Virus record (IMG/VR): IMGVR_UViG_3300008108_000898
Coordinates: 1 to 26,343 of that record
Length of the DNA: 26,343 bases
Source: a virus
Strand: one strand, 5' to 3'
The notes under the pieces are model-generated. The model ran no database searches. It saw nothing but the letters and a program-made list of their open reading frames with translations, and was not told the origin of the DNA. The translations under genes were made by a program, and so were the position numbers. This document shows positions 8,452 to 24,826 of this stretch, piece after piece; the first letter of the stretch is position 1, and the number at the start of each line of letters is the position of its first letter.

Positions 8452-8878
8452 AACACCTGAAGACCTTTTAAAAGCATGGGGGGAATATAAACAATCCCTA
8501 AAAGAACAAGCTAAAGAATGGCCAAAGATACAATACGTAGGGAAAGATGGTAATAGAGTAACAGACTATCCAGTTATTCCTTTTACTTTAGAAGGATTTA
8601 AACGCTATTGTCGTGAGAATCATGGAGATATACACCATTATTTTGAAAGTAAAGATTCTTATTATGATGAGTTTAGGGGTATCTGTTCGCACATAAAGGA
8701 AGAAATAAGAGAACAACAGATCATTGGAGGTATGTTAGGCTTTTATAATCCAAGTATTACACAGAGATTAAACGGCTTAGTTGAGAAATCAGAAAACAAA
8801 ACAGAACACTCAGGAACAATAAATGCAAACTTCGGTAACCCTATACAATCCACACCAAAAGCAGAAGATAATACATGA
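8429..8878 (+). CDS. terS: Terminase small subunit (GP3-package-like)
   Basis: A 149-residue protein with an N-terminal TRIFKTPEDLLKAWGEYKQS, a middle PFTLEGFKRYC, and a C-terminal GGMLGFYNPSITQRLNGLVE. This is the pattern I associate with the small terminase (DNA-packaging protein gp3-like) of many Bacteroidetes phages; the small subunit recognises the packaging site and recruits the large subunit. Position immediately before terL, with a 56-bp overlap, supports the call. The acidic/Asn-rich C-terminal tail ends in PKAEDNT. Confidence 0.75.
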   Translation: MHPTRIFKTPEDLLKAWGEYKQSLKEQAKEWPKIQYVGKDGNRVTDYPVIPFTLEGFKRYCRENHGDIHHYFESKDSYYDEFRGICSHIKEEIREQQIIGGMLGFYNPSITQRLNGLVEKSENKTEHSGTINANFGNPIQSTPKAEDNT

Positions 8879-10016
8879 TTCTATTAATTTAGAACCTTAC
8901 AAGTATTATGTTTTAAATATTGGCAGGCAGTTTGGTAAGACCATGTTAGCCATGAACCAATGTTATTACTGGGCATTTAACAATTCAAATGTTAAAATAG
9001 CATGGGTTTCACCTATCTATAAACAGTGTAAGAAAGTATTTGATGAGATGGTTTTAGCCTTTGCGGATTCAAACCTAATCAAATCTAATGCTAGTGATCT
9101 AGTTATAACACTTCCAAACGGTTCAACTATTCAATTCTTTAGTGCAGAACGTTACGATAATATTCGTGGTTTTACATTTGATTACCTAGTATGTGATGAG
9201 TTCGCATTTATGGCAGAACAGGCATGGTCAGAAGTATTAAGAGCCACTGTATTAGTTAAGGGTAAGAAAGTCCTATTAATTAGTACTCCAAAGGGTAAAA
9301 ATCATTTTTATAACCTTTTTAATCTGGATGGGGTCAACCCACAGTACAAGTCTTTTAAGATGACCAGTTACGATGGTTTGGCTACTAAAGACGAAATAGA
9401 CGGGGCAAAGTTAACCTTACCAGAAAACATCTTTAAGCAAGAATATTTAGCCGAGTTTGTAGATAATGGTTCGGGGGTATTCAAAGAACTAACCATAAAC
9501 GAAACACCACAAGAAACAGAACGCTATTATGCAGGGGTTGACTTAGGTAGAGCAGATGATTATTCAGTCTTAACCATTTTAAACGAAAATGGACAAATGG
9601 TATACTGTGAGAGATGGAGACATGAAAGCTGGCAAAAGATAGTTAATAACATAGCAAGCGATTTAATGCGTTTTAAGGCTACTGCTTATATAGAGGTAAA
9701 TAGTATCGGGGACGCAATATTCGAGCAAATAAAGGCACAGTATTCAAAAATAGAACCATTCTACACAACAAGTAAAAGCAAGATGGATGCTATTGAAAGT
9801 TTACAGGTAGCCATTCAAAACAAAGAATTTAACATTTTAGACAAGGAATGGTTAAAAAAGGAGTTCGATATATTCACTTATGAGTATAACCATAAGACTA
9901 GATCAGTTCGTTATTCTGCCCCTCAAGGCTTTCATGATGACGGTGTTATGAGTTGTGCCATAGCTTATCAAGCATTAAAGAACTTAAAAACTGCTGGGAC
10001 GTATTCTTTCTATTAA
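8823..10016 (+). CDS. terL: Terminase large subunit
   Basis: A 397-residue packaging motor. Walker A is IGRQFGKT (33-40), Walker B YLVCDE (121-126) with the catalytic Glu, and the coupling motif is LISTPKG (152-158). The C-terminal RNase-H-like nuclease has GVDLGRADD (Asp240), YIEVNS (Glu301) and GFHDDGV (Asp372/373), so all expected acidic residues are present. It pumps DNA into the prohead and cuts at headful or cos sites. The N-terminus overlaps terS by 56 bp. The portal, its docking partner, is unusually far away (22402). Confidence 0.93.
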   Translation: MQTSVTLYNPHQKQKIIHDSINLEPYKYYVLNIGRQFGKTMLAMNQCYYWAFNNSNVKIAWVSPIYKQCKKVFDEMVLAFADSNLIKSNASDLVITLPNGSTIQFFSAERYDNIRGFTFDYLVCDEFAFMAEQAWSEVLRATVLVKGKKVLLISTPKGKNHFYNLFNLDGVNPQYKSFKMTSYDGLATKDEIDGAKLTLPENIFKQEYLAEFVDNGSGVFKELTINETPQETERYYAGVDLGRADDYSVLTILNENGQMVYCERWRHESWQKIVNNIASDLMRFKATAYIEVNSIGDAIFEQIKAQYSKIEPFYTTSKSKMDAIESLQVAIQNKEFNILDKEWLKKEFDIFTYEYNHKTRSVRYSAPQGFHDDGVMSCAIAYQALKNLKTAGTYSFY

Positions 10017-10038
10017 ATTTACAAAATAAGTGTATATA
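10012..10038 (+). promoter_or_regulatory. Late-type promoter element A
   Basis: ATTT at 10017-10020, an 11-bp spacer, then GTATATA at 10032-10038 (inside GTGTATATA). The final A lies 6 nt before the GTG start at 10044. The same spacing and core recur at 18654, 19284 and 21954. If TATATA is the -10 box, transcription would begin at or next to the start codon, giving a leaderless mRNA. The upstream box is the weakest of the four, matching only ATTT. Confidence 0.5.
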
Positions 10039-10043
10039 TTGGT

Positions 10044-10697
10044 GTGAAGTTACCAGTATCGTACAAAGACTTAAGCGTTAAAGATTATCAATCTATTCAT
10101 CCTTTTATTAAGGATAAGATGACTTTTGATGATTGGATGACCGTACTCTCTAAAGTATGCGGTTTGACGATTGCAGAGTTAGAAACCATCCCTTTAAAAA
10201 AGTTAAAAGACTATTTTGTCTTAATCTCATTTTTAGGCAAATTACCGTCTATAAACAATCGTAAATACTTAAGAGTAGGTAAACACCTTTTAAAGAAGGA
10301 AACAGACGCAGAGAATCTTTGTGTAGCTCAATATGCTACAATAAAAGAACTTTGCAAGGATGGAAACGCAATTCAAAACCTACACCATATAGCTGCCTGT
10401 TCATATCGTATATTCAAGGTAAGACATAAATACATGGAATCGGGAGTTCAAAAGTCTAAATGGTTCTCATTTGTTTACGATGCTAACTATCACAAAGAGA
10501 TTTCAGAAAGTATCTTAACTAAGAATATACAAAGTGTTTACGGGGTGGTTTTTTTTTGCTCCAAAGCATTGAAACACTTGATGGTAAATACAGAGGACTA
10601 TTTAAAAGCGCAGGAAGTAATCATGGAACGGGAACAGGAGATTTTACGCATGATCCAAGAAGGGACTTTATTGACTTCTGGGGATGGTATGCAGTAG
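10044..10697 (+). CDS. Putative tail assembly chaperone, zero-frame product
   Basis: A 217-residue product from GTG, directly after promoter element A. The body is helical (SYKDLSVKDYQSIHPFIKDK at the start, repeated short helices, then YGVVFFCSKALKHL). I infer a tail assembly chaperone (lambda gpG/gpGT analogue) because a T9 run at 10549-10557 sets the in-frame heptamer T TTT TTT, and the -1 frame then stays open into a protein-like extension without its own start. Size and helical content fit; sequence identity to known chaperones is not something I can show. The zero-frame tail (residues 171-217) is also protein-like (LKAQEVIMEREQEILRMIQE). Confidence 0.55.
   Translation: MKLPVSYKDLSVKDYQSIHPFIKDKMTFDDWMTVLSKVCGLTIAELETIPLKKLKDYFVLISFLGKLPSINNRKYLRVGKHLLKKETDAENLCVAQYATIKELCKDGNAIQNLHHIAACSYRIFKVRHKYMESGVQKSKWFSFVYDANYHKEISESILTKNIQSVYGVVFFCSKALKHLMVNTEDYLKAQEVIMEREQEILRMIQEGTLLTSGDGMQ
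10549..10557 (+). other. T9 slippery site for -1 ribosomal frameshifting
   Basis: Nine T residues in the context GTT TTT TTT TGC. In zero frame the heptamer T TTT TTT (10550-10556) allows both P- and A-site tRNAs to re-pair after a one-base backward slip. The -1 frame is open from 10523 to the stop at 10841-10843. A sequencing undercall of one T would look the same and is the main alternative. Confidence 0.5.
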
Positions 10698-10843
10698 TTG
10701 ATGATGTAACAGGTGGCGACCCTTTTAAAGAAGATGAGGTTTGGAGCTGGGGTGTTGTAAGGTTCTTAAATAGGTTAAGTTACATGAAAGATAAGAACGA
10801 AGTAATAGCAGAAGAGTTAAAAAAGAGTGGCACTAGAGGATGA
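10556..10843 (+). CDS. Minus-1 frame extension of the tail assembly chaperone
   Basis: A 95-residue segment in the -1 frame relative to the gene at 10044. It contains DFWGWYAVVDDVTGGDPFKE and WGVVRFLNRLSYMKDKNEVI, which look like a folded domain; I associate a similar GWY...GD...FLxxLSYxKDKNE pattern with Bacteroidetes phage proteins near the chaperone position. The first ATG in this frame is far inside the domain, so normal initiation is unlikely; frameshifting at 10549-10557 would give a 266-residue fusion (171 + 95). The end overlaps the next gene by 17 bp. Confidence 0.5.
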   Translation: MLQSIETLDGKYRGLFKSAGSNHGTGTGDFTHDPRRDFIDFWGWYAVVDDVTGGDPFKEDEVWSWGVVRFLNRLSYMKDKNEVIAEELKKSGTRG

Positions 10844-11366
10844 AATAAAACAGGTTTGTGATAACTGGGCGGTGTTGTTAAGCACTGATTTACTAGCATC
10901 ATTAAACAAGGCTCTTAAAGAGGGCGGTTCAACAAATCCCAATATATCAGCTTTACAGTTTAACCCAGTGGTTACTGTAACAAATACAGGATATACGGTT
11001 CGTGTTCTTAGTAACTATGATTATTGGTATTGGGTTGAATACGGAAGAAAGAAAGGTAAGATGCCACCAAGCGAAGTGTTTGGTAAGAAATGGCAGAATA
11101 AACACGGTATCAATGCGAATAAGGTAATAGCAGAGATAAACCTAAAGACCAAAAAAGGATTGACTAGAAAGCCTAAAAAGCTGAATTATGAAAAGAACGT
11201 TAAGACCCTATCTTATTTAATAGCTAGGTCAGTAGGTAAGAAAGGATATAAAGCAAGACCTTTTATTGATAGAGTAGTAACACAAGAAAGAATAAACGAT
11301 TTAAGTGAGCAGTTAGCAAAAGTAATGAGTAAGAATATAACAATAGATTTAACAATAGGTAAATGA
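10827..11366 (+). CDS. HK97 gp10-like tail completion/neck protein
   Basis: A 179-residue protein starting at GTG. YWYWVEYGRKKGKMPP (about 66-81) and a C-terminal KKGYKARPFIDRVV are the hallmark of the HK97 gp10/minor capsid family: an aromatic-VEYG-R loop with a Pro pair, then a G-x-x-x-RPF-I motif near the end. Such proteins sit at the head-tail interface or finish the tail tube. It overlaps both neighbours (17 bp and an ATGA). Confidence 0.7.
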   Translation: MALEDEIKQVCDNWAVLLSTDLLASLNKALKEGGSTNPNISALQFNPVVTVTNTGYTVRVLSNYDYWYWVEYGRKKGKMPPSEVFGKKWQNKHGINANKVIAEINLKTKKGLTRKPKKLNYEKNVKTLSYLIARSVGKKGYKARPFIDRVVTQERINDLSEQLAKVMSKNITIDLTIGK

Positions 11367-11596
11367 GTGTAACAGTACATACATATCCAATAGGGTACGT
11401 AACAGGGTTTAACCCTCAATGGTTTGTAGCAACCTCAACACAAGTGGCTTCAGCTAACTTTACTTATACAGTTAAATGCACGGATGTAATAACAAGTGCT
11501 ACAGCTACTTATGAGATTGAACAAAGACCAGATACGAAGCTGGCTTTTGATGCTTCCAACTTTGCTAAGAATTACATTGAACATAAGTGGGTCTAA
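11363..11596 (+). CDS. Phage structural protein, N-terminal part of an apparently split gene
   Basis: A 77-residue product from the ATGA overlap. The sequence (FNPQWFVATSTQVASANFTY, then a beta strand pair, RPDTKLAFDASNFAKNYIEH) looks like the first domain of a beta-rich structural protein common in Bacteroidetes phages, which in my recollection continues for some 250-400 more residues. Here it meets TAA at 11594-11596, while what looks like the next domain continues in the +1 frame just downstream. It may be a genuine short protein, but a split gene is likelier. Confidence 0.5.
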   Translation: MSVTVHTYPIGYVTGFNPQWFVATSTQVASANFTYTVKCTDVITSATATYEIEQRPDTKLAFDASNFAKNYIEHKWV

Positions 11597-12155
11597 TATA
11601 GATTATATTGTTTGGAATGGTGTTTTGAAATGGTTAGATTATCCCGGCTACGATCAAGATGATTTTGTTTATGCTAATTCAACTTCTAACTATAAGTACT
11701 TAACTAGTTTAAGGAACCCTTCAAGTTCGACCTTTTACAAACCAGATGCTAAGACCTATTCAGATAAAAGTTACTTCTTATATGCTTTAACAAGTGAGAA
11801 TAATGATCTTGAGTTCATAAGAATAAACGCTTACGATGCATCAGGGAACTTAATTCAATACAGTGATATAGCTAACCCATACGAAGCCAGTACAACATAC
11901 ACGGATAAAATGCTGTGTATAGATTGCGGAAGAAAGGGATTAGACAATATAGCTAGTGGATTGGTTACGGGTTCTTATCCTATTATACCTGCTAACTGTG
12001 CTTATTACGATGTTATAGATGCTTATACTATGCCTCCTGCTACAGCAAGAAAGAACATAGTTAGAATTTATGTAGAAAGCGAGTGTAAGTATGATGTTTA
12101 TGTTTTACACTTTTTAGATAAGGACGGGAACTTTCTACTACACGTATTAAATTGA
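11496..12155 (+). CDS. Phage structural protein, middle part of the split gene (start uncertain)
   Basis: The convincing protein sequence begins around 11580 (SGSNIDYIVWNGVLKWLDYP) and runs to HFLDKDGNF near 12130. The first 30 codons from the GTG at 11496 overlap the preceding gene in another frame and look non-native; TTG at 11577 or ATG at 11511 are other starts. The segment resembles the central domain of the same family as the preceding fragment, with KCxYDVYVLHFLDKDGNF-like strands (here ECKYDVYVLHFLDKDGNF). It ends at TGA 12153-12155, which overlaps a TTG opening the third fragment. Confidence 0.45.
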   Translation: MLQLLMRLNKDQIRSWLLMLPTLLRITLNISGSNIDYIVWNGVLKWLDYPGYDQDDFVYANSTSNYKYLTSLRNPSSSTFYKPDAKTYSDKSYFLYALTSENNDLEFIRINAYDASGNLIQYSDIANPYEASTTYTDKMLCIDCGRKGLDNIASGLVTGSYPIIPANCAYYDVIDAYTMPPATARKNIVRIYVESECKYDVYVLHFLDKDGNFLLHVLN

Positions 12156-12367
12156 ATAGTGATTGGTTTAGTGAAGAACAAATAGATGCCTATAGATACT
12201 TGGTTTCAAGCCCTGTAGTTTATATGGATATGGGTTCGACTATTGGATTAATCCCAGTTAAAGTTAACACAAATAACTACTTAGTAAATAAGAAGTTTAA
12301 CAACAAACTATACAACTTGACTATAGACATAGAGTACACACATAAAGACATTTACCAGAATGGCTAA
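12152..12367 (+). CDS. Phage structural protein, C-terminal part of the split gene
   Basis: A 71-residue product, read here from the TTG in a TTGA overlap; the frame is open from 12122 and RIKLNSDWFSEEQIDAYRYL suggests coding before the TTG. The motif chain SDWxSEEQ, SSPVVYMD, GLIPVKV, NKKFNNKLYNLTIDIEY is what I remember as the C-terminus of the Bacteroidetes structural family seen in the two upstream fragments. It may be translated by coupling or be the remnant of one gene. It overlaps the tail gene at 12360 by 8 bp. Confidence 0.5.
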   Translation: MNSDWFSEEQIDAYRYLVSSPVVYMDMGSTIGLIPVKVNTNNYLVNKKFNNKLYNLTIDIEYTHKDIYQNG

Positions 12368-14681
12368 TACTAGACTTCAGATAGGAACAAATGAGAATGT
12401 GGGGTACTTTGCAAACATCCCTATAACGATCATTTACCAAATAGCGGATATAAGAAATCCAGAGAATAGGAAAGGTTCTTTCAGTAAGACTATTGACATT
12501 CCAGGTAACAAAGAAACTAATATCCTATTCGAGAATATCTTTGAAGCGAACATAAGTTTACAAACCTTTGACCCTAGATTAAAGACTGAAGCTGTTTACT
12601 ATGTGGATGAGTTACCACAAATCAAAGGGTATATCCAGTTATTGAACATTTTAAAGAATGAGACCACAGGACAAGTAATTTACCAGTGTTCGTTAATTGG
12701 AGAGCTTACAACCTTATTCACAGATATACAAGGACTTTATTTAACAGACTTAGATTTTAGTGAGATAAACCATACATTAGATTATTTTAGTATATCGGGA
12801 AGTTGGGCTAATACAAGCGGAGCAACCTTTACAAGTACTAACGCCTCACGTGCCTATCCTTTATTAGACTGGGGGGTTAACAATTCTAACTTATCTTATG
12901 TAAAACCTCAACACTTTAGGTTGTGTTTGTTTGCTAGGGATATTCTATTAAAGATGTTTATTGCAGCCGGGTATACATGGGAATCTACCTTTTTGGATTC
13001 AGACCTTTTCAAAAGATTGGTAGTAACACCAACAAAGCCAAGCGCATTAAGTACTACAGTAATAAATAACAACAGATTTTTAGCAGAAGCAGACGGTACA
13101 GAAACCTTCACTAAAACAATGGTAGATAGTGCATTTCCTTTATTATCATTAACTGATATGACTGGGAATACTGTTAACTTCCAAACTGAAACTTACGATG
13201 CTGGTGGGGTATTTGCTACACCTACTTACACAGTAGCTACTACTAACTACCATAACATTCAAACTAACTTATCGTTAACATTAACCGTTTATAAAAATAC
13301 AGTAACAGATGTAAGTGCATCATGTACTTTATTGTCAGGTGTTATAGGGGTTTATTTGTATCAAGGTAGTAACATTGTAGGTACGGGTTCGTTGGTTTAT
13401 ACTCAATTAACACTAGGCTCAACGGCTGCAAATAACGTTAATGTGATCTTAAATAATTATCCTTTAACAGCTACCAATACTTATACTGTAAAGGTAGTTT
13501 ATAATAACATTCAAATCTCAACATTAGCAGCGGGATCGGCAGCGGACACATGGGATTTAAGAGTTAAAGTAAATAGTGGTTCTAACTTTTCAAGCGAGTT
13601 CACTTCTAACCAAGTTTATGACGGGATAGCAGTAGTGGCTAATGAATCAATCCCTGAGAACGTAACACAGGCAGACTTCTTCAAATCAATTATAAGACTG
13701 TTTAATTTATATGTGACGGTAGATAAGACCAATCCTAAGAACTATATTATAGAGCCAAGAGAGGATTTTTATTTGACCACAGCAAGAGATTGGACATACA
13801 AGCATAACGAAAACAGTGTAACAGAAATAAAGCCAGTAGGAGAGTTAAACTATAAGAAATACAAGTATCGTTATAAAGAAGATGGGGACTACTTTAATAA
13901 GTGGCATAAAGAAACATTTAAAGAAACTTATGGATATAAGGATGTAGATGTAACGAGTGACTTTGTAAAGGCTGAGAACATGACGGATGTAGTATTCAGT
14001 GCTACGCCTTATTATAGAAACCCTTATTTTAATTTAGTTACCGGGGCAATCTTACAAAAGAACAATAATATAATTTCAGAGATTAAGCCTAACATAAGAT
14101 TGTTGTATTACAAACAGATTAATCTACCTAATACACAATGGACATTTACAACGGCTGCCGGGAATTATACTTACACAAATTATCCACATGGGGGACATAC
14201 AGACAATCCATATAACCCAACTTTAGACTTAAACTGGGGATTACCTAATTTACCGTATATCTATCCTAATCAGTATTGGACTACTAACAACCTTTATAAT
14301 AAGTATTATTCAAGATACATTAACCAGATCACTGATAAAGATAGTAAGATAGTAACAACTGAATTTTGGTTAACACCTTTGGACATCCATATTTTTGATT
14401 TCCGCTACCCTATATTTTGGAAGGATGCTTATTATGTGGTGAACAAATTAGAGGCTAATTTAATAGACTACTTACCAACTAAGGTTGAGTTATTGAAGTT
14501 GACTAATTACGATGCCTTTACTCCTACAGATATAGATTTAAGTGGTGGAGTAGGTGGTGGTAATAACACGTATGAGAAAGTATACAATAACAACTTAACA
14601 AGCGGAGACGGTAACCAAAACTACGGTAATAGTTCAATGATTATAGGAGGCTCAAAAAACTTTATAGAAAATGGCTCGTGA
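12360..14681 (+). CDS. Large distal tail/baseplate-type protein
   Basis: A 773-residue, beta-rich protein. It opens with NIPITIIYQIADIRNPENRK and GSFSKTIDIPGNKETNILFE, and ends with FDFRYPIFWKDAYYVVNKLE then PTKVELLKL. I recognise this RKGxxSKT-I-PG-x-x-x-N...F and C-terminal YY-x-V-N-K pattern from Bacteroidetes phage tail proteins that lie near the tape measure, probably in the distal tail or baseplate hub. The very C-terminus is Gly/Asn-rich and flexible. It overlaps the next gene by 11 bp. Confidence 0.65.
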   Translation: MANTRLQIGTNENVGYFANIPITIIYQIADIRNPENRKGSFSKTIDIPGNKETNILFENIFEANISLQTFDPRLKTEAVYYVDELPQIKGYIQLLNILKNETTGQVIYQCSLIGELTTLFTDIQGLYLTDLDFSEINHTLDYFSISGSWANTSGATFTSTNASRAYPLLDWGVNNSNLSYVKPQHFRLCLFARDILLKMFIAAGYTWESTFLDSDLFKRLVVTPTKPSALSTTVINNNRFLAEADGTETFTKTMVDSAFPLLSLTDMTGNTVNFQTETYDAGGVFATPTYTVATTNYHNIQTNLSLTLTVYKNTVTDVSASCTLLSGVIGVYLYQGSNIVGTGSLVYTQLTLGSTAANNVNVILNNYPLTATNTYTVKVVYNNIQISTLAAGSAADTWDLRVKVNSGSNFSSEFTSNQVYDGIAVVANESIPENVTQADFFKSIIRLFNLYVTVDKTNPKNYIIEPREDFYLTTARDWTYKHNENSVTEIKPVGELNYKKYKYRYKEDGDYFNKWHKETFKETYGYKDVDVTSDFVKAENMTDVVFSATPYYRNPYFNLVTGAILQKNNNIISEIKPNIRLLYYKQINLPNTQWTFTTAAGNYTYTNYPHGGHTDNPYNPTLDLNWGLPNLPYIYPNQYWTTNNLYNKYYSRYINQITDKDSKIVTTEFWLTPLDIHIFDFRYPIFWKDAYYVVNKLEANLIDYLPTKVELLKLTNYDAFTPTDIDLSGGVGGGNNTYEKVYNNNLTSGDGNQNYGNSSMIIGGSKNFIENGS

Positions 14682-15147
14682 TATAGCATTAATTAATTGT
14701 GACGGTGTAGTAGTTACTTCAGAGATAGAAGACTTTGTAGGTATCGGCTTAACCAGTTCTACCACTGTAGAAAGCAATAAAATAAACATAAGGGAATCTA
14801 TAAAGGTAACTAAAGAGGCTGGGCAGTTATACTATACAACTTCAGTCTATCAAAAGGCTCAAAGGATAGATAGTGCAACTAAAACGGCAGACTTTACAGT
14901 AGATATGACTAAAGGTATCTACTATATAAACACAAGTTTAGGGGATGTAACAGCAACATGGGATGATACACTTGGAGCTAATTGGCAAGTAACATTTAAA
15001 ATAGTGGATGCTACAAATAACTTTATAATAACTACTTCGAGTGGTACAGGGTTGTTTGAGACTAATGCACTACCATATACAACAGGACTAGCAGTAAGGG
15101 ATTCAATAACAGTACATTTTGACGGTACAGATTTAAACATAGTATAA
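14671..15147 (+). CDS. Virion-associated beta-rich protein (fibre or tail accessory)
   Basis: A 158-residue Thr/Asp-rich protein without cysteine clusters or membrane segments. N-terminal MARDIALINCDGVVVTSEIE is followed by strand-turn repeats ending in DSITVHFDGTDLNIV. The composition is that of phage tail fibre or decoration proteins. It lies between the large tail protein and two more beta-rich genes and overlaps both sides (11 bp, and TAATG). Its exact place in the virion is unknown. Confidence 0.55.
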   Translation: MARDIALINCDGVVVTSEIEDFVGIGLTSSTTVESNKINIRESIKVTKEAGQLYYTTSVYQKAQRIDSATKTADFTVDMTKGIYYINTSLGDVTATWDDTLGANWQVTFKIVDATNNFIITTSSGTGLFETNALPYTTGLAVRDSITVHFDGTDLNIV

Positions 15148-15590
15148 TGACGTACATAGCTAAAAGAGTAAGAGTAAAACATAATGATGTTGATGTAGCA
15201 TACACCAACTCTGTTAACTTTTTAGATGGCACTAATGCTAGCTTTACAGTAAACGATGATATACCAAATGAACACGTAGACGTTCAAGTAGAATCTACAG
15301 GTGGGGGAGGAAGTGGAAGTACTATTAGTGGAACGGCTGTTTTGAATTTTGGAGCAGAAAAGGATAAAGCATTAAATACAGTTACATCAGTTGTATTGAC
15401 TACCGCTAACATAAAGAGTTTTACAATTATTCCACAGGAAACAACAGAAACAAGTTTAGACGATTTTAAATTAAACGGGGTAACTTTTAACATAGAGAAT
15501 ATAATTAATAACACATCATTTGACATAAGAGGCACAGCATCAAAAAAGGCAAGTGGTAACTACACAATTAAATACATAATAATTTATTAA
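15147..15590 (+). CDS. Virion-associated protein with Gly/Ser linker
   Basis: A 147-residue protein in two parts, joined by a GGGGSGS linker around residues 53-59. The N-terminal part (YIAKRVRVKHNDVDVAYTNS) and the C-terminal part ending in NYTIKYIIIY are beta-type. The linker suggests independently folded domains, as in tail accessory or fibre-tip proteins. Start and upstream stop share TAATG. No known domain is recognised. Confidence 0.5.
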   Translation: MTYIAKRVRVKHNDVDVAYTNSVNFLDGTNASFTVNDDIPNEHVDVQVESTGGGGSGSTISGTAVLNFGAEKDKALNTVTSVVLTTANIKSFTIIPQETTETSLDDFKLNGVTFNIENIINNTSFDIRGTASKKASGNYTIKYIIIY

Positions 15591-15593
15591 GAC

Positions 15594-17048
15594 ATGGCAA
15601 CAAAAATCGAGGGCGGCTCGAATACCGCAGGACTAGCAAACGTAACAACTGATTACGCTATAAAGACTACTTTAGAAAGGGATGTAGATACTAACCCAGC
15701 TAATGTAAGTGCTGTTAAATTCTATAGTGAGAATGATAGCGGAACTAAAACAGGATCGCCTTATTTATACTCTCCTGAGACTGATGAGGATTACCGTTTA
15801 CGTGTATCACAGGATACAATGTTAGATAATGAGACTTTTAACTATACAGCGCAAAATACAGGAAAGCACACATACGCCAATAGTACATTAACAGCTACAT
15901 GGACAACTGCTGGTTTAACTACTAACGGTGGTTCAGTAACTACTACAGGAACAGGAGTTACATTTGGTACTTATGCAGAGTTTCCTTTACTTACTTCATG
16001 TTTATTATATAACGAATTTACAGGAGCAATCACGGCAGCATTAACAACAAACTTTGTAATAGATATTGGATTATTTAGAAGAGGTGCAGCTACAGCTTAT
16101 GCGCCTACTGATGGTGTTTATTTCAGAATTAACGCTAGTGGTGTGTTTGGTGTTATCAATTACAACGGTGCAGAAACAACAACTGGAGCGTTTAGTTTTA
16201 GCCATACTAATAACCAAAACTATCAATTTATTATCACAGCAAGCGAGCGTGAAGTAAACTTCTGGATAGATAATGTTCGTTACGGAAGTATTCCAACTCC
16301 TGCTGGACAAGGTTCACCTTTCTTGTCTTCTACTTTACCATTCTCTATTCGCCATGCACACACAGGGACTACAGGAGCAGTAATTCAATTTCAGTTAAAA
16401 GATTATGGAGTTTCTGTTTCTGGTGCTAATATCCCAAAAGGATTAGGAGAAGTTGGTAATTCTATATTAGGTTCTTATCAAGGTTTAAGTGGTGGGACTA
16501 TGGGGTCTTTAGCTTCTTATGCTAACTCAACAAATCCAACAGCAGCAGCACCAAGTAACACGGCTTTAACTGCAAACTTACCAAACGGACTAGGTGGACA
16601 GGGAGCAGTAACAGCAGCGGCAGGTGGTTCGACTGATGGTATATGGGGATCTTATCAAGTTCCTGCTGGGACAGTTTCCGTACAGGGTAAAAGATTAAGA
16701 ATAACAGGAGTTAGGGTGGATGCTGTAAATATTGGAGCAGCAGTAGCTACTACTGTAACAACAGTTCAATTTAGTTTAGCATTTGGACATACAGCCGTAT
16801 CACTTGCAACAGCAGAGGGAGCAGCAGCAAAAGCAGCACGAAGAGTAGCTTTAGGTTATATGAGCTGGGCAGTAGGAGCAGCAATAGGAACACCTCCAAC
16901 ACAAGGAGCAATAAACGTAGATTTTAAAGAACCTATTTATGTTAACTCTGGTGAGTTTGTTCAATTAGTAGGAAAGTTTATAGTAGGAACAGCAACAGCT
17001 TCACAAGTGATTTCATTTGTATGGCAACCAATCTATTCATGGGAATAA
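15594..17048 (+). CDS. Large fibre/decoration-type structural protein with lectin-like region
   Basis: A 484-residue Ala/Thr/Gly-rich protein. A YRLRVSQDTMLDNETFNYTA stretch (about 66-85) introduces a region (about 90-270) with repeated beta strands and VYFRINASGVFGVINYNG and VNFWIDNVRYGSIP motifs that look like a concanavalin/LamG-type jelly roll, as in receptor-binding phage proteins. The C-terminal 200 residues are low in charge and end in FVWQPIYSWE. I infer a receptor-binding or surface-exposed virion role; the RLRVxxDTxL motif occurs in structural proteins of uncultured phages, from memory. Confidence 0.55.
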   Translation: MATKIEGGSNTAGLANVTTDYAIKTTLERDVDTNPANVSAVKFYSENDSGTKTGSPYLYSPETDEDYRLRVSQDTMLDNETFNYTAQNTGKHTYANSTLTATWTTAGLTTNGGSVTTTGTGVTFGTYAEFPLLTSCLLYNEFTGAITAALTTNFVIDIGLFRRGAATAYAPTDGVYFRINASGVFGVINYNGAETTTGAFSFSHTNNQNYQFIITASEREVNFWIDNVRYGSIPTPAGQGSPFLSSTLPFSIRHAHTGTTGAVIQFQLKDYGVSVSGANIPKGLGEVGNSILGSYQGLSGGTMGSLASYANSTNPTAAAPSNTALTANLPNGLGGQGAVTAAAGGSTDGIWGSYQVPAGTVSVQGKRLRITGVRVDAVNIGAAVATTVTTVQFSLAFGHTAVSLATAEGAAAKAARRVALGYMSWAVGAAIGTPPTQGAINVDFKEPIYVNSGEFVQLVGKFIVGTATASQVISFVWQPIYSWE

Positions 17049-17057
17049 AATTAAAAC

Positions 17058-18653
17058 ATGGCAGAAAGTAAAGTAGTAATAACAACAGAGGTTAAAACAG
17101 GTGACTCACTAAACTCACTTAAAAACCTAAAGAAAGAATTAAAAGAAGCTCAAGCTGCTGCCTTAAATGGTGACGGTAAAGCTGCTAAGAGAGTAGCGGA
17201 ATTAAAAGACCGTATGGATGACCTTACGGATGCTACAAAGACCTTTCAAGGTAGTGGTGTTGAACGCGCTACCTCTTCTTTAAATTTATTAGGTGACGGT
17301 TTTAAGAACTTAGATTTAGACAAAGTAAAAACAGGTTTTAAAGGTTTGGGGGCTGCTATGGCGGCTGTTCCTATCTTTTTAATTGTTGAGGGTATTACTT
17401 ACTTAATCCAAAACTTTGAAGAACTATCACAAGGTAACGGAATACTGGCTAAGTCTTTAAGAGCAGTAGGGGATGTTATTGATTGGGTAGTAGATAAGGT
17501 TTATGCTTTAACCGATGCTTTAGGTTTGACAAATAGCGAACTTGATAAACAAGGCGAGGCAATAAAAGAGAACGCCGACAAAACAAAAGAGGCACTAGAC
17601 CAACAAACCGCTGCATTTGATAGACAAATTAAAGCTGCTCAAGCTGCTGGTAAAAGTACGGTTGAATTAGAGAAAGCCAAACAAAAAGCAATCATAGATA
17701 CTAATTTACAAGTAGTAAAACAAATAGAGGCTTTTGTAAGAGCAGGAGGGGAATTAGACGAAGAGAAAAAGAGATTGTTAACAGCAAGTTTAGAGGCTAT
17801 TAAGACGGCTAAGAACGAAGAGAATATAATAGATATAAAGTCTGAACAAGATAAAAAGAAGAACAATGAACAAGCATTAAAAAACTTACAAGAGAAACAA
17901 GAAAAAGAAAGAGCAGAACTAGAAAAAGCACACCAAGAGGTTTTAAAAAGAGCAAAGGATGAAGAAGAGTGGCAGGCTGCTAGTTTAGACTATTTAACTA
18001 AAAGAGATGAATTAGCTAAGAAACAATCAATAGAATTTGCAGAGCAAGAGGCAAATGCAAAAGCTAGTTTATTTAACGATACTGTTGTTGCTGGTGCAAA
18101 GTCATACGAAGAAGATGTAGAGAACAAAAAGAAGAGTGATGCAGCTATAAAGGAAGCGGATGCTAAAAAGTTCGATGCAATGAAAGGATTATCTGATGCC
18201 TTCTTTGCTATTCAATTAAACAGAGCAAAAGGAAACGCAGCCAGAGAATTAGAGATTAAAAAGCAAATGTTTAATGTGGATAAGGCTTTTAACGTAGCAA
18301 GAGCAACACAGGACGGTATCAGATCGGTTCAAGCTGCTTTAACTATTCCTCCTCCCGGTGGTCAAATCTTAGCAGGTGTTAACGCTGCTTTAGCTGTAGC
18401 CAATGTAGCTAAAATCTTAGCGACAAAATTTGACGGTGGCGGTGCATCAGTAACAGCGGAAACAGGTTCAGTAAGTGTGCCAACAAACACAAGTTTACCT
18501 ACTGTAAGCAATACAACAGCCCCTAACATTCAACCGTCTACTTCATTTGATGAGACTGGCAGAAACTTAAACAATAGAGTTTATGTCTTGGAATCTGATA
18601 TTACTAAGTCACAGGGTAGGGTAGCAAGGTTAAACGAACAGGCAACTATATAA
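17058..18653 (+). CDS. Tape measure protein (short)
   Basis: A 531-residue protein. The N-terminal part is helical (SLNSLKNLKKELKEAQAAAL), a hydrophobic segment lies at about 97-116 (LGAAMAAVPIFLIVEGITYL), a long charged coiled coil occupies about 260-330 (QEKQEKERAELEKAHQEV), and the C-terminal part has the Ala-rich LTIPPPGGQILAGVNAALAV stretch followed by KFDGGG. This layout is that of tail tape measure proteins of Bacteroidetes phages. At 531 residues it is short and, if length scales at about 1.5 angstroms per residue, implies a tail of roughly 80 nm. It ends 32 bp before the next start, where promoter element B lies. Confidence 0.75.
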   Translation: MAESKVVITTEVKTGDSLNSLKNLKKELKEAQAAALNGDGKAAKRVAELKDRMDDLTDATKTFQGSGVERATSSLNLLGDGFKNLDLDKVKTGFKGLGAAMAAVPIFLIVEGITYLIQNFEELSQGNGILAKSLRAVGDVIDWVVDKVYALTDALGLTNSELDKQGEAIKENADKTKEALDQQTAAFDRQIKAAQAAGKSTVELEKAKQKAIIDTNLQVVKQIEAFVRAGGELDEEKKRLLTASLEAIKTAKNEENIIDIKSEQDKKKNNEQALKNLQEKQEKERAELEKAHQEVLKRAKDEEEWQAASLDYLTKRDELAKKQSIEFAEQEANAKASLFNDTVVAGAKSYEEDVENKKKSDAAIKEADAKKFDAMKGLSDAFFAIQLNRAKGNAARELEIKKQMFNVDKAFNVARATQDGIRSVQAALTIPPPGGQILAGVNAALAVANVAKILATKFDGGGASVTAETGSVSVPTNTSLPTVSNTTAPNIQPSTSFDETGRNLNNRVYVLESDITKSQGRVARLNEQATI

Positions 18654-18680
18654 TTAACATTTTAACAATTAACGTATATA
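18654..18680 (+). promoter_or_regulatory. Late-type promoter element B
   Basis: TTAACATTT at 18654-18662, then 11 bp, then GTATATA at 18674-18680; its last A is 6 nt before the ATG at 18686. It occupies the only gap between the tape measure and protease genes. TTAACATTTTAA is shared base for base with element C. Predicted transcription would start at the ATG. Confidence 0.55.
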
Positions 18681-18685
18681 AAGAC

Positions 18686-19300
18686 ATGGAATTATTTGAA
18701 TTATTCATAAGCGAAGACCTAACAGATAAAAGTGGGGTTGATGATATAAGCGCAGTAGATAGCCCAGCAATAGGAGACGGTTATTTTGTATTTAACAAAC
18801 AGAAAGACCTTAAAAGATTAAAGCTAACATTCGGAAATCAAAAAGGGGACTTTACCCCAGTAGAAGGTGATAAACAGATTTTAGTGGGTGCTTTAATGAT
18901 CCCCGATCTAGAAATCTACCGAGTAAGTGATAATGGTCAGGAATATAACGTACAATTCCCAGCATCAGAGATAGCTAAGATACAAAGAAAGTTTAAAATG
19001 TTAGGTTATAATACTAACATAAACGAGATGCACGACCCTAACAAAAGGATAGACAATTCAGTATTGTTTCAAGATTATATCGTAAACCGTGCTTTTGGTC
19101 TTAACCCTCCAAAAGGTAAGGAACATTTACCAGACGGTACATGGGTTGGATTTGTTTATGTAGGGGACAAGAAGTTGTATGACGAGTACATGAAAACAGG
19201 AATTTACACAGGATTTAGTGTAGGTGGTTTCTTTTATGATCGCCCGGTAATTAAAATGACTGATGAGGTAGTAAGCCAATTAGTTAACATTTTAAAGTAA
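18686..19300 (+). CDS. Prohead protease, XkdF-like
   Basis: A 204-residue protein with DISAVDSPAI at 20-29 and a C-terminal GTWVGFVYVGDKKLYDEYMK followed by TGIYTGFSVGGFF (176-183 for GFSVGGFF). These are the marks of the XkdF-type putative phage serine peptidase, with Ser178 in GFSVGG and His116 in NEMHDP as likely catalytic residues. It would cleave scaffold and capsid during head maturation. Direct position before scaffold and capsid genes supports this. It starts right after promoter element B; element C overlaps its end. Confidence 0.75.
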   Translation: MELFELFISEDLTDKSGVDDISAVDSPAIGDGYFVFNKQKDLKRLKLTFGNQKGDFTPVEGDKQILVGALMIPDLEIYRVSDNGQEYNVQFPASEIAKIQRKFKMLGYNTNINEMHDPNKRIDNSVLFQDYIVNRAFGLNPPKGKEHLPDGTWVGFVYVGDKKLYDEYMKTGIYTGFSVGGFFYDRPVIKMTDEVVSQLVNILK

Positions 19301-19310
19301 GGTGTATATA
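19284..19310 (+). promoter_or_regulatory. Late-type promoter element C
   Basis: TTAACATTT at 19284-19292 (within the 3' end of the protease gene), 11 bp, then GTATATA at 19304-19310. Here the ATG (19334) is 24 nt downstream of the last A, so the predicted mRNA has a short A-rich leader. This copy shows the element is not simply part of the start codon context. Confidence 0.5.
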
Positions 19311-19333
19311 AGGTTATAACTTAAAATTAAATC

Positions 19334-19960
19334 ATGAATCCATTAAAAGACTTATTTACAAAAGCTATCAAAAACCTTTCTGTAGAAGAGCAAAAAGAAC
19401 TTGCTTCTCACTTAGAAAAGTTTAACGTAGCTCCAGTAGTTGCAGCCCCAGCGGTAGCAGCTCCAGTCCAAATGGGTGGCGAGGCAAAATTATCTGATGG
19501 TACAGTAGTAAAGTATGATACCCCTACTTTGGTAGTTGGTTCAGCTGTAACTGTTGTAACTCCAGAGGGTGAACTTCCTGCTCCAGACGGCGAACACACA
19601 CTAGAAGATGGTACTAAGATTGAAACAGTAGGCGGTAAAGTAACAGCGGTAGAAGCTCCTGAAATGCCAGTTGAGCAAGCACCTGCACCAGTTGCACAAG
19701 CTGCTCCTGTAGTTCCTTCGGTATTTGAGAAAGAAGTTAAAGAGAACTTCGCAAGCGTAAAAGCAGAAAACGAAACTCTAAAGACTGAACTTTCAAAGAT
19801 GAACGAAGTGATTGCAAATCAATCAAAGGACATCGAAGCTATTAAATCTTTCTTCAATTCGTTGATGGAAGTACCAACTGCTAAACCAGTAGAGGTTTCT
19901 GAAAAAGGAAATCTATTAAACAGAAAAATCGAAAAATTAACAAAATTCAATAACAAGTAA
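19334..19960 (+). CDS. Capsid scaffolding protein (putative)
   Basis: A 208-residue acidic, Ala/Pro/Val-rich protein. Two related beta motifs, KLSDGTVVKYDTPTLVVG and HTLEDGTKIETVGGKVTAVE, lie in the middle, and a coiled-coil-like helix (FASVKAENETLKTELSKMNE) follows. This composition and place, between protease and capsid, match scaffold proteins of Bacteroidetes phages. It would guide prohead assembly and be removed by the upstream protease. It ends 11 bp before the capsid gene and shares promoter element C with it. Confidence 0.7.
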   Translation: MNPLKDLFTKAIKNLSVEEQKELASHLEKFNVAPVVAAPAVAAPVQMGGEAKLSDGTVVKYDTPTLVVGSAVTVVTPEGELPAPDGEHTLEDGTKIETVGGKVTAVEAPEMPVEQAPAPVAQAAPVVPSVFEKEVKENFASVKAENETLKTELSKMNEVIANQSKDIEAIKSFFNSLMEVPTAKPVEVSEKGNLLNRKIEKLTKFNNK

Positions 19961-19971
19961 AAAATTAAAAA

Positions 19972-20877
19972 ATGGCATATAACGTTTCAGCTCTAGGGAG
20001 CTATACAAAAGAAAATGCAGATAGCTTAATTTACAAGACTATCGCTACAGGTGCAAAGACTGCACAATACATGGTTAAACAACCGGGTATCAAATCGGCA
20101 GAAACTATCAACATCGCTGCTACACGTGGTGTATGGCAAACAGGTAGTTCTTGTGGTTTCTCTGCTTCAGGTGATACTACTTTTAGCCAACGTACTTTAA
20201 CAGTAGGTAAAGTAAAAATTAACCTTAAATGGTGTGAGAAAGATTTAGAGCCTAAGTATTTACAAGGTGCTTTAGCTGCTGGTTCAACTTACACAATGTT
20301 AACTTTTGAAGAGCAGATCATTTCTGACATTCAGCAAAACATCGCTGCTGATTTAGAGACTGCAATTTGGCAAGGTGATACTACAGCAGGTTCAGCTTAT
20401 TTAAATAAGTTTGACGGTTTGTTAAAAATTATCGCTGCTGCTTCTCCAGTTTCAGCTTCAACTGTTGCTTGGTCAGTTGCTAACTCACGTACAGCGGTTC
20501 AAAACGTTTTAACTGCTGCTACTGCTGACATCTTAGCTCAACCAAACCTTAAATTGTTCATGGGTACAGTAGAAGCTCGTGACTACAAATTAAAATTAGG
20601 TATTGATAACCTTTACCATATCACTGGTTCAGAAGGTACTTTGTATGCTGAAAATTCAGACATTGAAATCGTACCAGTATTAGGCTTATCAGGTACAAAG
20701 AAGTTGATTTTAACTTCAACTGATAACTTGTATTTAGGTACAGACTTAATGAACGAAGATGAGAAATTTGATCTATTCTATGCTAAAGAAGCAGATGAGA
20801 TTCGTTTCGTAGCAGAGTTCAAAGTAGGTACTCAAATCGCTTTCGGTGACTTAATTGTTTACCAAGCTAACTCATAA
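19972..20877 (+). CDS. Major capsid protein
   Basis: A 301-residue protein with MAYNVSALGSYTKENADSLI at the start and a C-terminal ADEIRFVAEFKVGTQIAFGD typical of the HK97-fold capsid P-domain end. Codon use is even and high in common codons, consistent with high expression. It follows the protease and scaffold genes and is followed by a strong intrinsic terminator. The leader AAAAAATTAAAAA is the A-rich type. I see no long N-terminal delta domain, consistent with a separate scaffold. Confidence 0.8.
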   Translation: MAYNVSALGSYTKENADSLIYKTIATGAKTAQYMVKQPGIKSAETINIAATRGVWQTGSSCGFSASGDTTFSQRTLTVGKVKINLKWCEKDLEPKYLQGALAAGSTYTMLTFEEQIISDIQQNIAADLETAIWQGDTTAGSAYLNKFDGLLKIIAAASPVSASTVAWSVANSRTAVQNVLTAATADILAQPNLKLFMGTVEARDYKLKLGIDNLYHITGSEGTLYAENSDIEIVPVLGLSGTKKLILTSTDNLYLGTDLMNEDEKFDLFYAKEADEIRFVAEFKVGTQIAFGDLIVYQANS

Positions 20878-20882
20878 TGAGT

Positions 20883-20908
20883 GGGGGATTTAGTCCCCCC
20901 TCTTTTTT
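20883..20908 (+). terminator. Intrinsic terminator after the capsid gene
   Basis: GGGGGA (20883-20888), loop TTTAG, TCCCCC (20894-20899), followed by C T C and a T6 run to 20908. Stem and T-run are textbook. It lies right after the capsid stop codon and would set a high capsid-to-tail ratio, with readthrough supplying the tail tube gene, since no late-type element is seen before 20933. Confidence 0.85.
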
Positions 20909-20932
20909 ATTAATATTTAAAATATTTAAAAA

Positions 20933-21439
20933 ATGGCGTGTACATTAACACAAGATATAACAAAAGGATGCCGTGATTCAGTAGGTGGTATTAAAACTAT
21001 CTATATTGCTGAACTTTCAAGAAAAGGAACAGTAACTCAAGCATCTGGTGTTATTACTGCGTGGACAATGTCAAGCGGTTCATTTTGGACTTATGAGTTA
21101 GAAATGGGTGTAGCTTCTTACACTCAAACAATTAAGCCGAATAGAACTAATGGCACTACTTATTATGAGCAGTCTATTTCATTTACTATCCCTAAGAACC
21201 AAGCTACATTATCACAAGAGTTTAAATTACTAGCTCAAAACGATTTAATGGTTATTGCTTTAGATAGAAATGGTAAATACTTCTTATTAGGTGAGGCTAA
21301 TGGCTTGTCAATGGCAGATAGCACAACCGAAACAGGAACTGCTATGGCAGATTTCAACGGATATAGAATAACATTAACAGGTAGTGAAGAGACTATTGCC
21401 CCTGAAGTTCAGAGTGCAGTGGTAGCAACAATTATCTAA
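20933..21439 (+). CDS. Major tail tube protein (putative)
   Basis: A 168-residue protein with MACTLTQDITKGCRDSVGGI at the start, a KTIYIAEL strand, and a C-terminal YFLLGEANGLSMADSTTETG followed by TAMADFNGYRITLTGSEE. I recognise the CRDSVGGIK and GxAMxDxNGYxxTLTGxE motifs from tail tube proteins of Bacteroidetes siphophages; they form the hollow tail shaft. It lies between two terminators, as expected for a product with its own dosage. Confidence 0.7.
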   Translation: MACTLTQDITKGCRDSVGGIKTIYIAELSRKGTVTQASGVITAWTMSSGSFWTYELEMGVASYTQTIKPNRTNGTTYYEQSISFTIPKNQATLSQEFKLLAQNDLMVIALDRNGKYFLLGEANGLSMADSTTETGTAMADFNGYRITLTGSEETIAPEVQSAVVATII

Positions 21440-21468
21440 CAACTTTTGTTTGTTTGTTTCTCAAAAAT

Positions 21469-21509
21469 GGGGGAGCGTAGCCTGTAAGCTGCATCCCCCT
21501 TTCTTTTTT
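21469..21509. terminator. Bidirectional intrinsic terminator
   Basis: GGGGGA at 21469-21474 pairs with TCCCCC at 21494-21499; inside, GC and AGC pair with GCT and GC around a CTGTAA loop. A T-rich run (TTTCTTTTTT) follows to 21509 on the plus strand, and AAAAA just before the stem gives TTTTT on the minus strand. It can end both the tail tube transcript and the convergent minus-strand gene, whose stop codon is at 21508-21510. Confidence 0.8.
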
Positions 21510-21867
21510 ATACAGAAGCTATTTCTTTAACTAAAGACTTCTGGTTTAATTCATAAACCCTACCATCTAATGTTTTAGTTACAATGTGGTATTCATCTTC
21601 TATAGTTTTAAAAATCTCAACATCACTTTCATGTAATGTAAAATCAAGAGCTATAGGTTTTGCTCTGCCTAGAGCTTTATTTCTGTTTTTTACACTATCC
21701 ATTCCAAAACCATAATCCTCTAAAAGAGATATTATTTCATTTGTGTTTTTAACTACTACAAAATAGTCTTTACCCTTTACTTCAGTGTTATTAAACTTTA
21801 AAAAAGAGTTTGCAACACCAACGGAGTGGGTTATTCCGTGTTTTCTGATTACTTCAAATTTTGTCAT
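21508..21867 (-). CDS. Minus-strand accessory protein of unknown function
   Basis: A 119-residue protein read from the ATG at 21867 (MTKFEVIRKHGITHSVGVAN) to the stop at 21508-21510. An upstream in-frame ATG at 21897 is rejected because it would lie above the predicted transcription start. The leader AAACAAACAATATG is identical to that at 1932. The product has alternating helix and strand segments, no cysteine and no membrane segment; no family is recognised. It is the only minus-strand gene in the window and has its own host-type promoter and a shared terminator, like a moron gene. Confidence 0.7.
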   Translation of the reverse strand: MTKFEVIRKHGITHSVGVANSFLKFNNTEVKGKDYFVVVKNTNEIISLLEDYGFGMDSVKNRNKALGRAKPIALDFTLHESDVEIFKTIEDEYHIVTKTLDGRVYELNQKSLVKEIASV

Positions 21868-21886
21868 ATTGTTTGTTTTTATAATG

Positions 21887-21915
21887 CAAATATACATACT
21901 AATTCAATACACAAA
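21887..21915 (-). promoter_or_regulatory. Bacteroidetes host-type promoter for the minus-strand gene
   Basis: On the minus strand, TTTG at 21915-21912, a 17-bp spacer, then TATATTTG at 21894-21887, which fits the Bacteroidetes vegetative consensus TTTG / TAnnTTTG. Transcription would begin near 21880, leaving about 13 nt before the ATG at 21867. Confidence 0.7.
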
Positions 21916-21947
21916 TGTTAAATTTTCATTCTTAAATGTTAAATTTT
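21913..21947. repeat. Two 14-bp direct repeats, operator-like
   Basis: AAATGTTAAATTTT occurs at 21913-21926 and again at 21934-21947, identical in all 14 bases and offset by 21 bp, two helical turns. The first copy overlaps the -33 box of the minus-strand promoter and the second lies just upstream of late element D, whose GTAACATTT box is a partial inverted match. The layout is that of an operator between divergent promoters. Confidence 0.6.
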
Positions 21948-21953
21948 AAAATA

Positions 21954-21980
21954 GTAACATTTATAAATAAAGTGTATATA
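21954..21980 (+). promoter_or_regulatory. Late-type promoter element D
   Basis: GTAACATTT at 21954-21962, 11 bp, then GTATATA at 21974-21980 (within GTGTATATA); its last A is 6 nt before the GTG at 21986. Between GTATATA and start it reads ATAGT, against TTGGT at element A. It drives the portal-containing unit away from the minus-strand gene. Confidence 0.55.
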
Positions 21981-21985
21981 ATAGT

Positions 21986-22402
21986 GTGATATTTTTAGAG
22001 TTCGGTTCAAATACTTGTGATTTTACCTTAGAAGAAAAAAGGACTATAACCAATGCGGATTATGTATTCGTATTTGTTAATGACAATACAGGTAAAAAAG
22101 TGGCTTGTACGGCTACTAATACTTCGAGTTATACAGATAGATATGATCGTTTTGTAATAACGGTAGCAAGTTCTAATATCCCAGCAAGTGGGTATATTAA
22201 TTTAGATGACTTTGGATTTTATCACTATTACGTTTATGAAACAGCGGATGCTTCAACATTCGACTATACAAACATAGATACTACAGACTTAAGAACTTTA
22301 ACAGGAGAGGTTGAAACTGGTAAAATGTATTATAACACTGCTTCACCTACTCACACCTATTATAAAGATACTAGGTCATCAATTAAAACATACGGCACAT
22401 AA
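21986..22402 (+). CDS. Virion-module protein of unknown function
   Basis: A 138-residue protein from a GTG right after promoter element D. It has a beta-rich body (TLEEKRTITNADYVFVFVND), then SYTDRYDRFVITV, then GYINLDDFGFYHYYVYETAD, and a VETGKMYYN element. I remember this order of motifs (TLxEK, Y-x-F-x-F, RYxxFxI, Y-x-V-Y-E, E-x-G) from small proteins in Bacteroidetes phage head-tail regions; no role is established. It shares TAATG with the portal gene, so the two are probably coupled. Confidence 0.6.
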   Translation: MIFLEFGSNTCDFTLEEKRTITNADYVFVFVNDNTGKKVACTATNTSSYTDRYDRFVITVASSNIPASGYINLDDFGFYHYYVYETADASTFDYTNIDTTDLRTLTGEVETGKMYYNTASPTHTYYKDTRSSIKTYGT

Positions 22403-24310: not shown

Positions 24311-24826
24311 ATGTATAGCGTATATAGATTGATAAACCCATTAGATAATTCAACATTTTATGTTGGAGTAACTAATAACATAAAAAGAAGATTCTCGCAA
24401 CATTTAAGAGATAAAAAGCAAAAAGAAAAATATGCTTATATTAAGTCTATTGGACAAAAGCCAATAATTGAAGAGCTTAAAAATGTTGATAATATAGAGT
24501 TGGCTGAATTTATAGAGTCTGAATATATTGATTTATATAAGTTTAACGGTTATAATCTATATAACAAAAATAATGGTGGTAACAATCCACCAAGCCAAAG
24601 TGGCAAAGTATTTTCTGAAGAAAGAAAACGCAAATGTTTTGAAATAAGTGTATTAAAGAAAAGAATAGTACAGTTAGATAAAAACAATAATGTTGTAGCA
24701 GAGTTTGAAGGTGCTAGAGAAGCTGGCAGAATTACAGGAATAGACCATAGAAGTATATCACAAGTTGCAAGCGGAAGTTTAATTAGAAAATCGGCTGGTG
24801 GCTATAAATGGAAGTATAAACAATGA
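24311..24826 (+). CDS. GIY-YIG homing endonuclease
   Basis: A 171-residue free-standing nuclease. The GIY-YIG fold is seen as MYSVYRL (1-7) and TFYVGVTNNIKRRFSQH (15-31), with YVG in place of YIG, the conserved Arg27, and Glu-rich helix ELAEFIESEYIDLY (63-76). The C-terminus has a NUMOD-type DNA-binding region (KRIVQLDKNNNVVAEFEGAR then HRSISQVASG and GYKWKY). It lies one base after the portal stop and overlaps the next start by an ATGA. AT content is higher than in its neighbours, consistent with recent insertion. Confidence 0.85.
   Translation: MYSVYRLINPLDNSTFYVGVTNNIKRRFSQHLRDKKQKEKYAYIKSIGQKPIIEELKNVDNIELAEFIESEYIDLYKFNGYNLYNKNNGGNNPPSQSGKVFSEERKRKCFEISVLKKRIVQLDKNNNVVAEFEGAREAGRITGIDHRSISQVASGSLIRKSAGGYKWKYKQ

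Follow-up and report, generated by a model that had tools for sequence, protein, structure and literature searches.

Predicted near-leaderless late promoters in an uncultured Bacteroidota phage and a phage-encoded sigma factor as their probable reader

The stretch of DNA analysed here (the window, 26,343 bases in all) is the uncultured virus record IMGVR_UViG_3300008108_000898 of IMG/VR and is likely a fragment. It carries four copies of a two-part element, ATTT-N11-GTATATA, and we consider it probable that these are late promoters of the phage, that they start transcription with little or no leader, and that they are read by a sigma factor of the extracytoplasmic function (ECF) type encoded by the phage itself. 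Judged by their positions and by the corresponding sites in relatives, the elements are very likely promoters; that their mRNAs are leaderless, or nearly so, is likely from the position of the box, and we infer late action from the genes that the elements precede.

Exact copies of ATTT-N11-GTATATA occupy positions 10017-10038, 18659-18680, 19289-19310 and 21959-21980, with none on the minus strand. A preliminary description of this DNA had placed the beginning of each copy 5 nucleotides (nt) further upstream, at TTAACATTT or the corresponding sequence, an extent that we keep here; its count of four was borne out, as were the variants it listed (CATTT in three copies, TTAACATTT in two and GTGTATATA in three). 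Putative late promoter A (10012..10038, plus strand) has the upstream box ATTAAATTT and GTATATA at 10032-10038, and is followed by a GTG at 10044. Putative promoters B (18654..18680, plus strand) and C (19284..19310, plus strand) both have TTAACATTT, with GTATATA at 18674-18680 and 19304-19310, and precede the ATG at 18686 of the protease gene and the ATG at 19334 of a scaffold-like gene, respectively. Putative promoter D (21954..21980, plus strand), which is identical in the relative L001, joins GTAACATTT to GTATATA at 21974-21980 ahead of a GTG at 21986. From the final A of the element to the start codon is 6 nt at 10044, 18686 and 21986 and 24 nt at 19334, just as had been described. Of the window, only 4.9% is intergenic, and it is in or at these few gaps, directly before virion genes, that all four copies are found, again in agreement with the preliminary description.

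In line with the enrichment that had been anticipated, the exact spaced pair occurs four times as against a mean of 0.10 in shuffled sequence, and four copies were reached in 0 of 100 dinucleotide shuffles. Copy number alone is nevertheless insufficient proof, because when any pair of a 4-mer and a 7-mer is allowed at any spacing, nine pairs reach four copies in the window (versus 0-6 in shuffles). GTATATA by itself is not enriched (10 copies versus 8.3 expected), and with two mismatches permitted the element has 38 matches where 33.7 are expected, which is no excess. We therefore rejected the idea that the number of copies establishes significance. (The GTATATA words at 3259, 3670, 4863 and 24320 and an internal GTGTATATAATAG at 4533, all inside coding sequence and without a spaced partner, were also set aside.) Since TTAACATTT-N11-GTATATA was found in 63 stretches of IMG/VR and twice in none of them, the literal word is not conserved; it is peculiar to the lineage of the window. 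The reality of the element rests on its position, and homologous sites in relatives provide independent support.

For this comparison we took the upstream regions of homologous genes in relatives whose large terminase (TerL) is 63-80% identical, together with those in the distantly related cultivated phages P12024L and P12024S. Each lineage was found to have one repeated word at equivalent virion-gene starts, with the word differing between lineages. Whereas the window has GTATATA, the repeated elements across the relatives and the Nonlabens phages were GTAATTTA (in G002 and G003), GGTATTAT (in G004), TTGATATAT (in G005), AATACTT (in G007-G010), GTAAGTTTA (in G011), GTAATTTTA (in L054 and L059) and CGTTAATA; the word of P12024L is CGTTA[AT]TA, and at one site each G006 has TTGGTATAT and G012 has TTGTATTATA. 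At the site homologous to promoter A, lineage-specific boxes are present in G002, G004, G005, G006, G007-G010, G011 and G012. In a permutation test of 400 trials, the word shared at homologous sites was set against the best word from gene starts drawn at random within that genome, and 0 of 400 were as good for each of G000, G002, G004, G005 and G011. G011 (37.9 kb) has exactly five copies of the nine-letter GTAAGTTTA, each on the plus strand and each followed by a start codon after 4-5 nt. Phages with TerL proteins 70-80% identical can have boxes that are wholly different, and no lineage word was found at the start of the capsid gene in any lineage examined. (Note that in L054 and L044 a separate repeated word, AAAACCAAA, stands right before the start codons of several non-virion open reading frames (ORFs) and is perhaps a second class of signal in that lineage.)

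These comparisons bear on the alternative of chance, namely that an AT-rich genome will yield four similar gapped words that are then picked post hoc. The other gapped words that reach four copies, and the lack of an excess with two mismatches, speak for it; it is contradicted by separate lineages showing the same pattern at homologous sites with different words, and we find it scarcely credible. Neither chance nor a generic AT-rich translation context would be expected to give lineage-specific words at homologous starts.

The preliminary description had proposed a promoter with a TATATA -10 box, an upstream box containing ATTT around -30 and a start of transcription at the codon itself. The promoter reading gains from the boxes in relatives and from statistical support for an upstream box, but the identity of that box has to be revised, its conserved core being the TTAAC/AAAC part and not ATTT as such. 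Of 36 sites drawn from eight lineages, 17 have an AAC (AAAC) word some 17 nt ahead of the box (mean 8.6 and maximum 14 in matched controls). The upstream box of the window is the TTAAC of TTAACATTT, with site A lacking TTAAC as such; TTAAC/GTAAC-N15-GTATATA accounts for three of the four sites, and TTAAT/GTAAT-N15 is found at three of four sites in G004. In P12024L, six start codons are preceded at 4 nt by CGTTA[AT]TA and this in turn, at 14-15 nt, by AAAACAA, so that AAAACAA-N14/15-CGTTA is found at 6 of 6 sites. Two boxes at near-constant spacing, as in a bipartite -35/-10 promoter, are therefore found within lineages, the spacing being less regular in G002 and G005.

The end of the box is almost always 4-8 nt before the start codon (ATG or GTG), and the first T of its TA lies at -11 to -13 at nearly all sites except that of the scaffold-like gene. 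Because the flavobacterial sigma-A box TAnnTTTG spans -12 to -5 relative to the transcription start site (PMC9723704), this position would put +1 at approximately the first base of that codon. For the scaffold-like gene, the window, G002, G004 and G007 have the box 18-29 nt upstream, implying a short leader (about 17 nt for the scaffold/capsid unit of the window), and G005 and G011 have it at the distance found elsewhere. The variable spacing at this gene argues that the box is not purely a translation signal, as had been claimed from copy C.

Could the element nonetheless act in translation initiation only, as an AT-rich, Kozak-like context ahead of highly expressed virion genes? A Shine-Dalgarno-like word was found at none of 33 gene starts in the window (versus 8% at random places), which fits expectation for a Bacteroidota phage, and translation in Bacteroidota relies on an A-rich upstream context (PMC6847099); both points favour a role of this kind. 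Set against them are the capsid gene and g20933, which are likely among the most highly expressed and have no box in every lineage examined, and also the distance of 18-29 nt at the scaffold start, the specific 7- to 9-mer of each lineage with its partner box about 17 nt upstream, and the terminator-like hairpins ahead of the box at the portal operon. We regard a role confined to translation as very unlikely.

The hairpin concerned consists, in the window, of GGGGGAGC..GTAA..GCATCCCCC followed by a T-rich tail (21469..21499, plus strand) and would form the boundary before the unit of promoter D. In G002, G003, G005 and G011 the g21986-type promoter likewise has an equivalent hairpin directly upstream, an arrangement that fits a boundary between transcription units. 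(The pre-portal hairpins of the window and of these four relatives share a GTAA loop, a GNRA-type tetraloop.) A second intrinsic terminator-like hairpin follows the capsid gene (20883..20900, plus strand).

As to the reader of the putative late promoters, the gene at 2684-3271 (plus strand) encodes what by sequence and predicted fold is a two-domain, ECF-like member of the sigma-70 family. Pfam Sigma70_r2 is matched above cut-off in four relatives (G007-G010) and weakly, with an E value of 0.037, by the window member, and a profile built from 23 relatives finds the ECF sigma structures SigR, RpoE, SigW and SigH. (When a sigma profile was iterated on a small database, it strayed to the gene that follows the terminase, and those hits were excluded from alignment A1, in which a C-terminal helix-turn-helix (HTH) is seen.) The AlphaFold2 model of the window protein has a pLDDT (predicted local distance difference test) of 80, with a linker of low confidence at residues 74-103. 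Residues 1-82 of the model superpose on an ECF sigma-2 domain at 2.2 Å over 80 residues (Z 10.7) and residues 103-196 on sigma-4 at 3.5 Å over 77 (Z 7.6), a match that is modest by itself. The architecture of sigma-2, short linker and sigma-4, with neither sigma-1 nor sigma-3, is that of ECF factors. The sigma profile has matches in 14 of 15 records, including two outside the profile, G002 (E 6e-28) and P12024L (E 5e-4), and the P12024L protein, P12024L_35, is independently annotated as Sigma-70 region 2. In the window and most relatives the gene lies in the block upstream of the terminase. A T7-type RNA polymerase (PF00940) was found in 0 of these 15 records, some of them fragments, in a search whose T7 control was positive. 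AAC is the -35 box of many ECF sigma factors, and in the case described the -10 box also contains a conserved TA (PMC8791391); the boxes seen here fit this pattern. It is plausible, and on balance probable, that the phage's own sigma factor reads the late promoters.

Alternatively, the late promoters may be read by host RNA polymerase with sigma-A or an alternative host sigma factor, possibly together with a phage activator, for which the HTH-like gene at 2287-2622 would be a candidate, and the sigma-like gene may serve otherwise. Some lineage boxes (GTAAGTTTA and GTAATTTTA) do resemble the host -7 element TAnnTTTG minus its final G, and a possible HTH ORF does precede the sigma gene of the window (judged by eye; it has weak HNH-family matches only). 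The host sigma-A pattern (TAnnTTTG at -7 and TTTG near -33), which the preliminary description had contrasted with the element, is matched at 0 of the 4 late sites, where the upstream box is AAC and not TTTG; it is present instead in full, as TTTG-N17-TATATTTG (21887..21915, minus strand), before an inserted minus-strand gene of 129 codons (21508-21897) that lies between the terminator-like hairpin and promoter D. (No significant family match was found for this insert.) In P12024L, too, minus-strand genes with TATATTTG-like boxes are found next to the late promoters. Host-type and phage-type boxes occurring in the same genomes suggest that two kinds of promoter are kept apart, and a complete change of box at 70-80% TerL identity is unlike a consensus set by the host. 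For these reasons we think reading by a host sigma factor unlikely, and favour the phage-encoded one. Note that an E. coli-type promoter, TTAACA-N17-TATAAT, was also considered and rejected: site D matches it at 10 of 12 positions and the others loosely, a scan gave 43 sites versus 58 in shuffles, and this type is neither used by the host phylum nor kept in the relatives.

The minus-strand genes of P12024L in places comparable to the insert are at 2750-2980, 5123-5365 and 25649-25945. An inverted repeat, AAAGCCACCA...TGATGGCTTT, lies in the gap at 470-571 of the window, where the minus strand also has a match to the host-type TTTG/TATATTTG, directed away from the virion genes.

Several observations weigh against near-leaderless promoters read by a phage sigma factor. 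Each site in the window is short and AT-rich, and the permutation test was borderline in G007 and G010 (four-site p about 0.06), because the protease start has no box there. GTG is the codon at two of the three predicted leaderless starts of the window, leaderless mRNAs are rare in Flavobacterium psychrophilum (5.5%; PMC9723704), and most leaders in Flavobacterium johnsoniae exceed 10 nt (PMC6847099). The correlation of sigma similarity with box similarity (r 0.74) mostly reflects shared ancestry; the partial correlation given TerL was 0.32 (p 0.025) after re-aligning one box and 0.05 (p 0.37) before. Finally, the box may instead be read by an HTH protein or some other regulator.

Phages that have sigma factors and late promoters of their own are already known, as in the case of T4 gp55 and the SPO1-type cascades. 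As in those systems, a phage sigma factor of the sigma-70 superfamily is proposed here to redirect the host core polymerase to a phage-specific -10 box ahead of virion genes. The present case differs in the compact, ECF-like sigma-2/sigma-4 protein, in the -35-like AAC box, in the variation of the box among close relatives and in the near-leaderless placement, and its sigma dependence is a prediction. With ECF sigma factors (SigR, SigW and SigH, and sigma-P with -35 AACA and -10 TA; PMC8791391) the protein shares two-domain size, profile and fold, and the promoters share the AAC of the upstream box and the TA of the -10 box. Unlike in ECF systems, no anti-sigma gene was identified here, the Pfam score of the window member is weak, and lineages differ in the spacing from AAC to the -10 core (about 12-18 nt). 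Late promoters of phiKZ (TATG) and AR9 (AACA-N6-TA/G; PMC5312081) are likewise short, phage-specific boxes near the start site, but they are read by phage multisubunit RNA polymerases, and the leaders of AR9 measure 26-491 nt (PMC5312081). The flavobacterial sigma-A promoter TAnnTTTG resembles the element in that its -10 box begins at about -12 from the start site (PMC9723704), and differs in having TTTG, which is seen neither in the box nor upstream here, and in that flavobacterial mRNAs normally have leaders.

In the scheme that we propose, the phage would make an ECF-like sigma-2/sigma-4 factor from the block upstream of the terminase, and host core RNA polymerase carrying this factor would read the late promoters, in each of which TTAAC is the -35-like and GTATATA(A) the -10-like box. 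Transcription of the tail module, the protease and the portal operon would begin at the start codon or one or two bases from it at most, with the scaffold/capsid unit as the exception by virtue of its leader; host sigma-A sites (TAnnTTTG) would serve early and inserted genes. It may or may not be the case, with neither outcome favoured, that the phages compared form a Bacteroidota group with leaderless late mRNAs in which promoter words and the matching sigma factor change far more quickly than the virion genes under their control, giving each lineage a private (orthogonal) code.

We found no late promoter or phage sigma regulon described for this group of Bacteroidota phages in the literature searched, subscription papers being mostly outside its reach. 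As far as that literature goes, the Bacteroidota setting, the leaderless placement in a phylum with few leaderless mRNAs and the fast turnover of promoter words between close relatives are new. The outcome is a predicted promoter code, a likely reader, and a cultivated phage with a flavobacterial host, P12024L, that is suited to testing both. If the reading is true, these phages offer Bacteroidota genetics a natural set of sigma/promoter pairs that differ in specificity. They would also allow one to test whether leaderless AUG and GUG mRNAs are translated efficiently by Bacteroidota ribosomes, which do not depend on Shine-Dalgarno sequences.

The closest cultivated relatives in a search with protease and portal proteins were only the Nonlabens (Persicivirga) phages P12024L and P12024S. 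A DNA-level search of cultivated phages with the window gave no match, nor did searches for cultivated relatives with the major capsid and sigma proteins. Evidence on the host from proviruses is weak and consists of a 3.1-kb contig of a Chitinophagaceae metagenome-assembled genome (TerL 60%).

The gene order of the window begins with the sigma-like gene, a glycosyltransferase cluster and the terminases, of which the large one (8823..10016, plus strand) shares a gene block with the sigma gene and lies upstream of promoter A. Next come the tail genes, the first of them at 10044..10697 (plus strand; predicted leaderless GTG start), then promoter B and the head maturation protease (18686..19300, plus strand; Peptidase_S78_2). 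Promoter C is followed by the scaffold-like gene (19334..19960, plus strand; assigned by its position 5' of the capsid gene and by phrog_24921) and the candidate major capsid gene (19972..20877, plus strand; a virion structural protein of phrog_1623), which is presumably transcribed with it from promoter C. After a terminator, one gene, the terminator-like hairpin and the inserted gene, promoter D precedes the portal operon, which includes a first gene (21986..22402, plus strand) and the portal gene (22402..24309, plus strand).

Between the sigma-like gene and the terminase, the glycosyltransferase-like cluster and a methyltransferase gene extend over 4101-8009. A nine-T run (within 10545-10560), conserved as a run of T in nearly all relatives, lies where the ORFs 10044-10697 and 10556-10843 meet. 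It resembles a site of programmed frameshifting or slippage that would fuse two tail-assembly chaperone frames, by analogy with lambda G/GT. Short overlapping ORFs at 11363-11596, 11496-12155 and 12152-12367 correspond to a single intact ORF of about 400 codons in G004, G005, G006 and G002, and the split reflects frameshifts that are either real or assembly-derived. A GIY-YIG/NUMOD1 homing endonuclease gene (24311-24826) lies between the portal gene and the following gene, and among the relatives compared occurs only in L001, with a distant minus-strand match in G011. The N-terminus of the scaffold-like protein resembles the dimerisation domain of ribosomal L7/L12 (E 3e-5, slightly under the Pfam cut-off).

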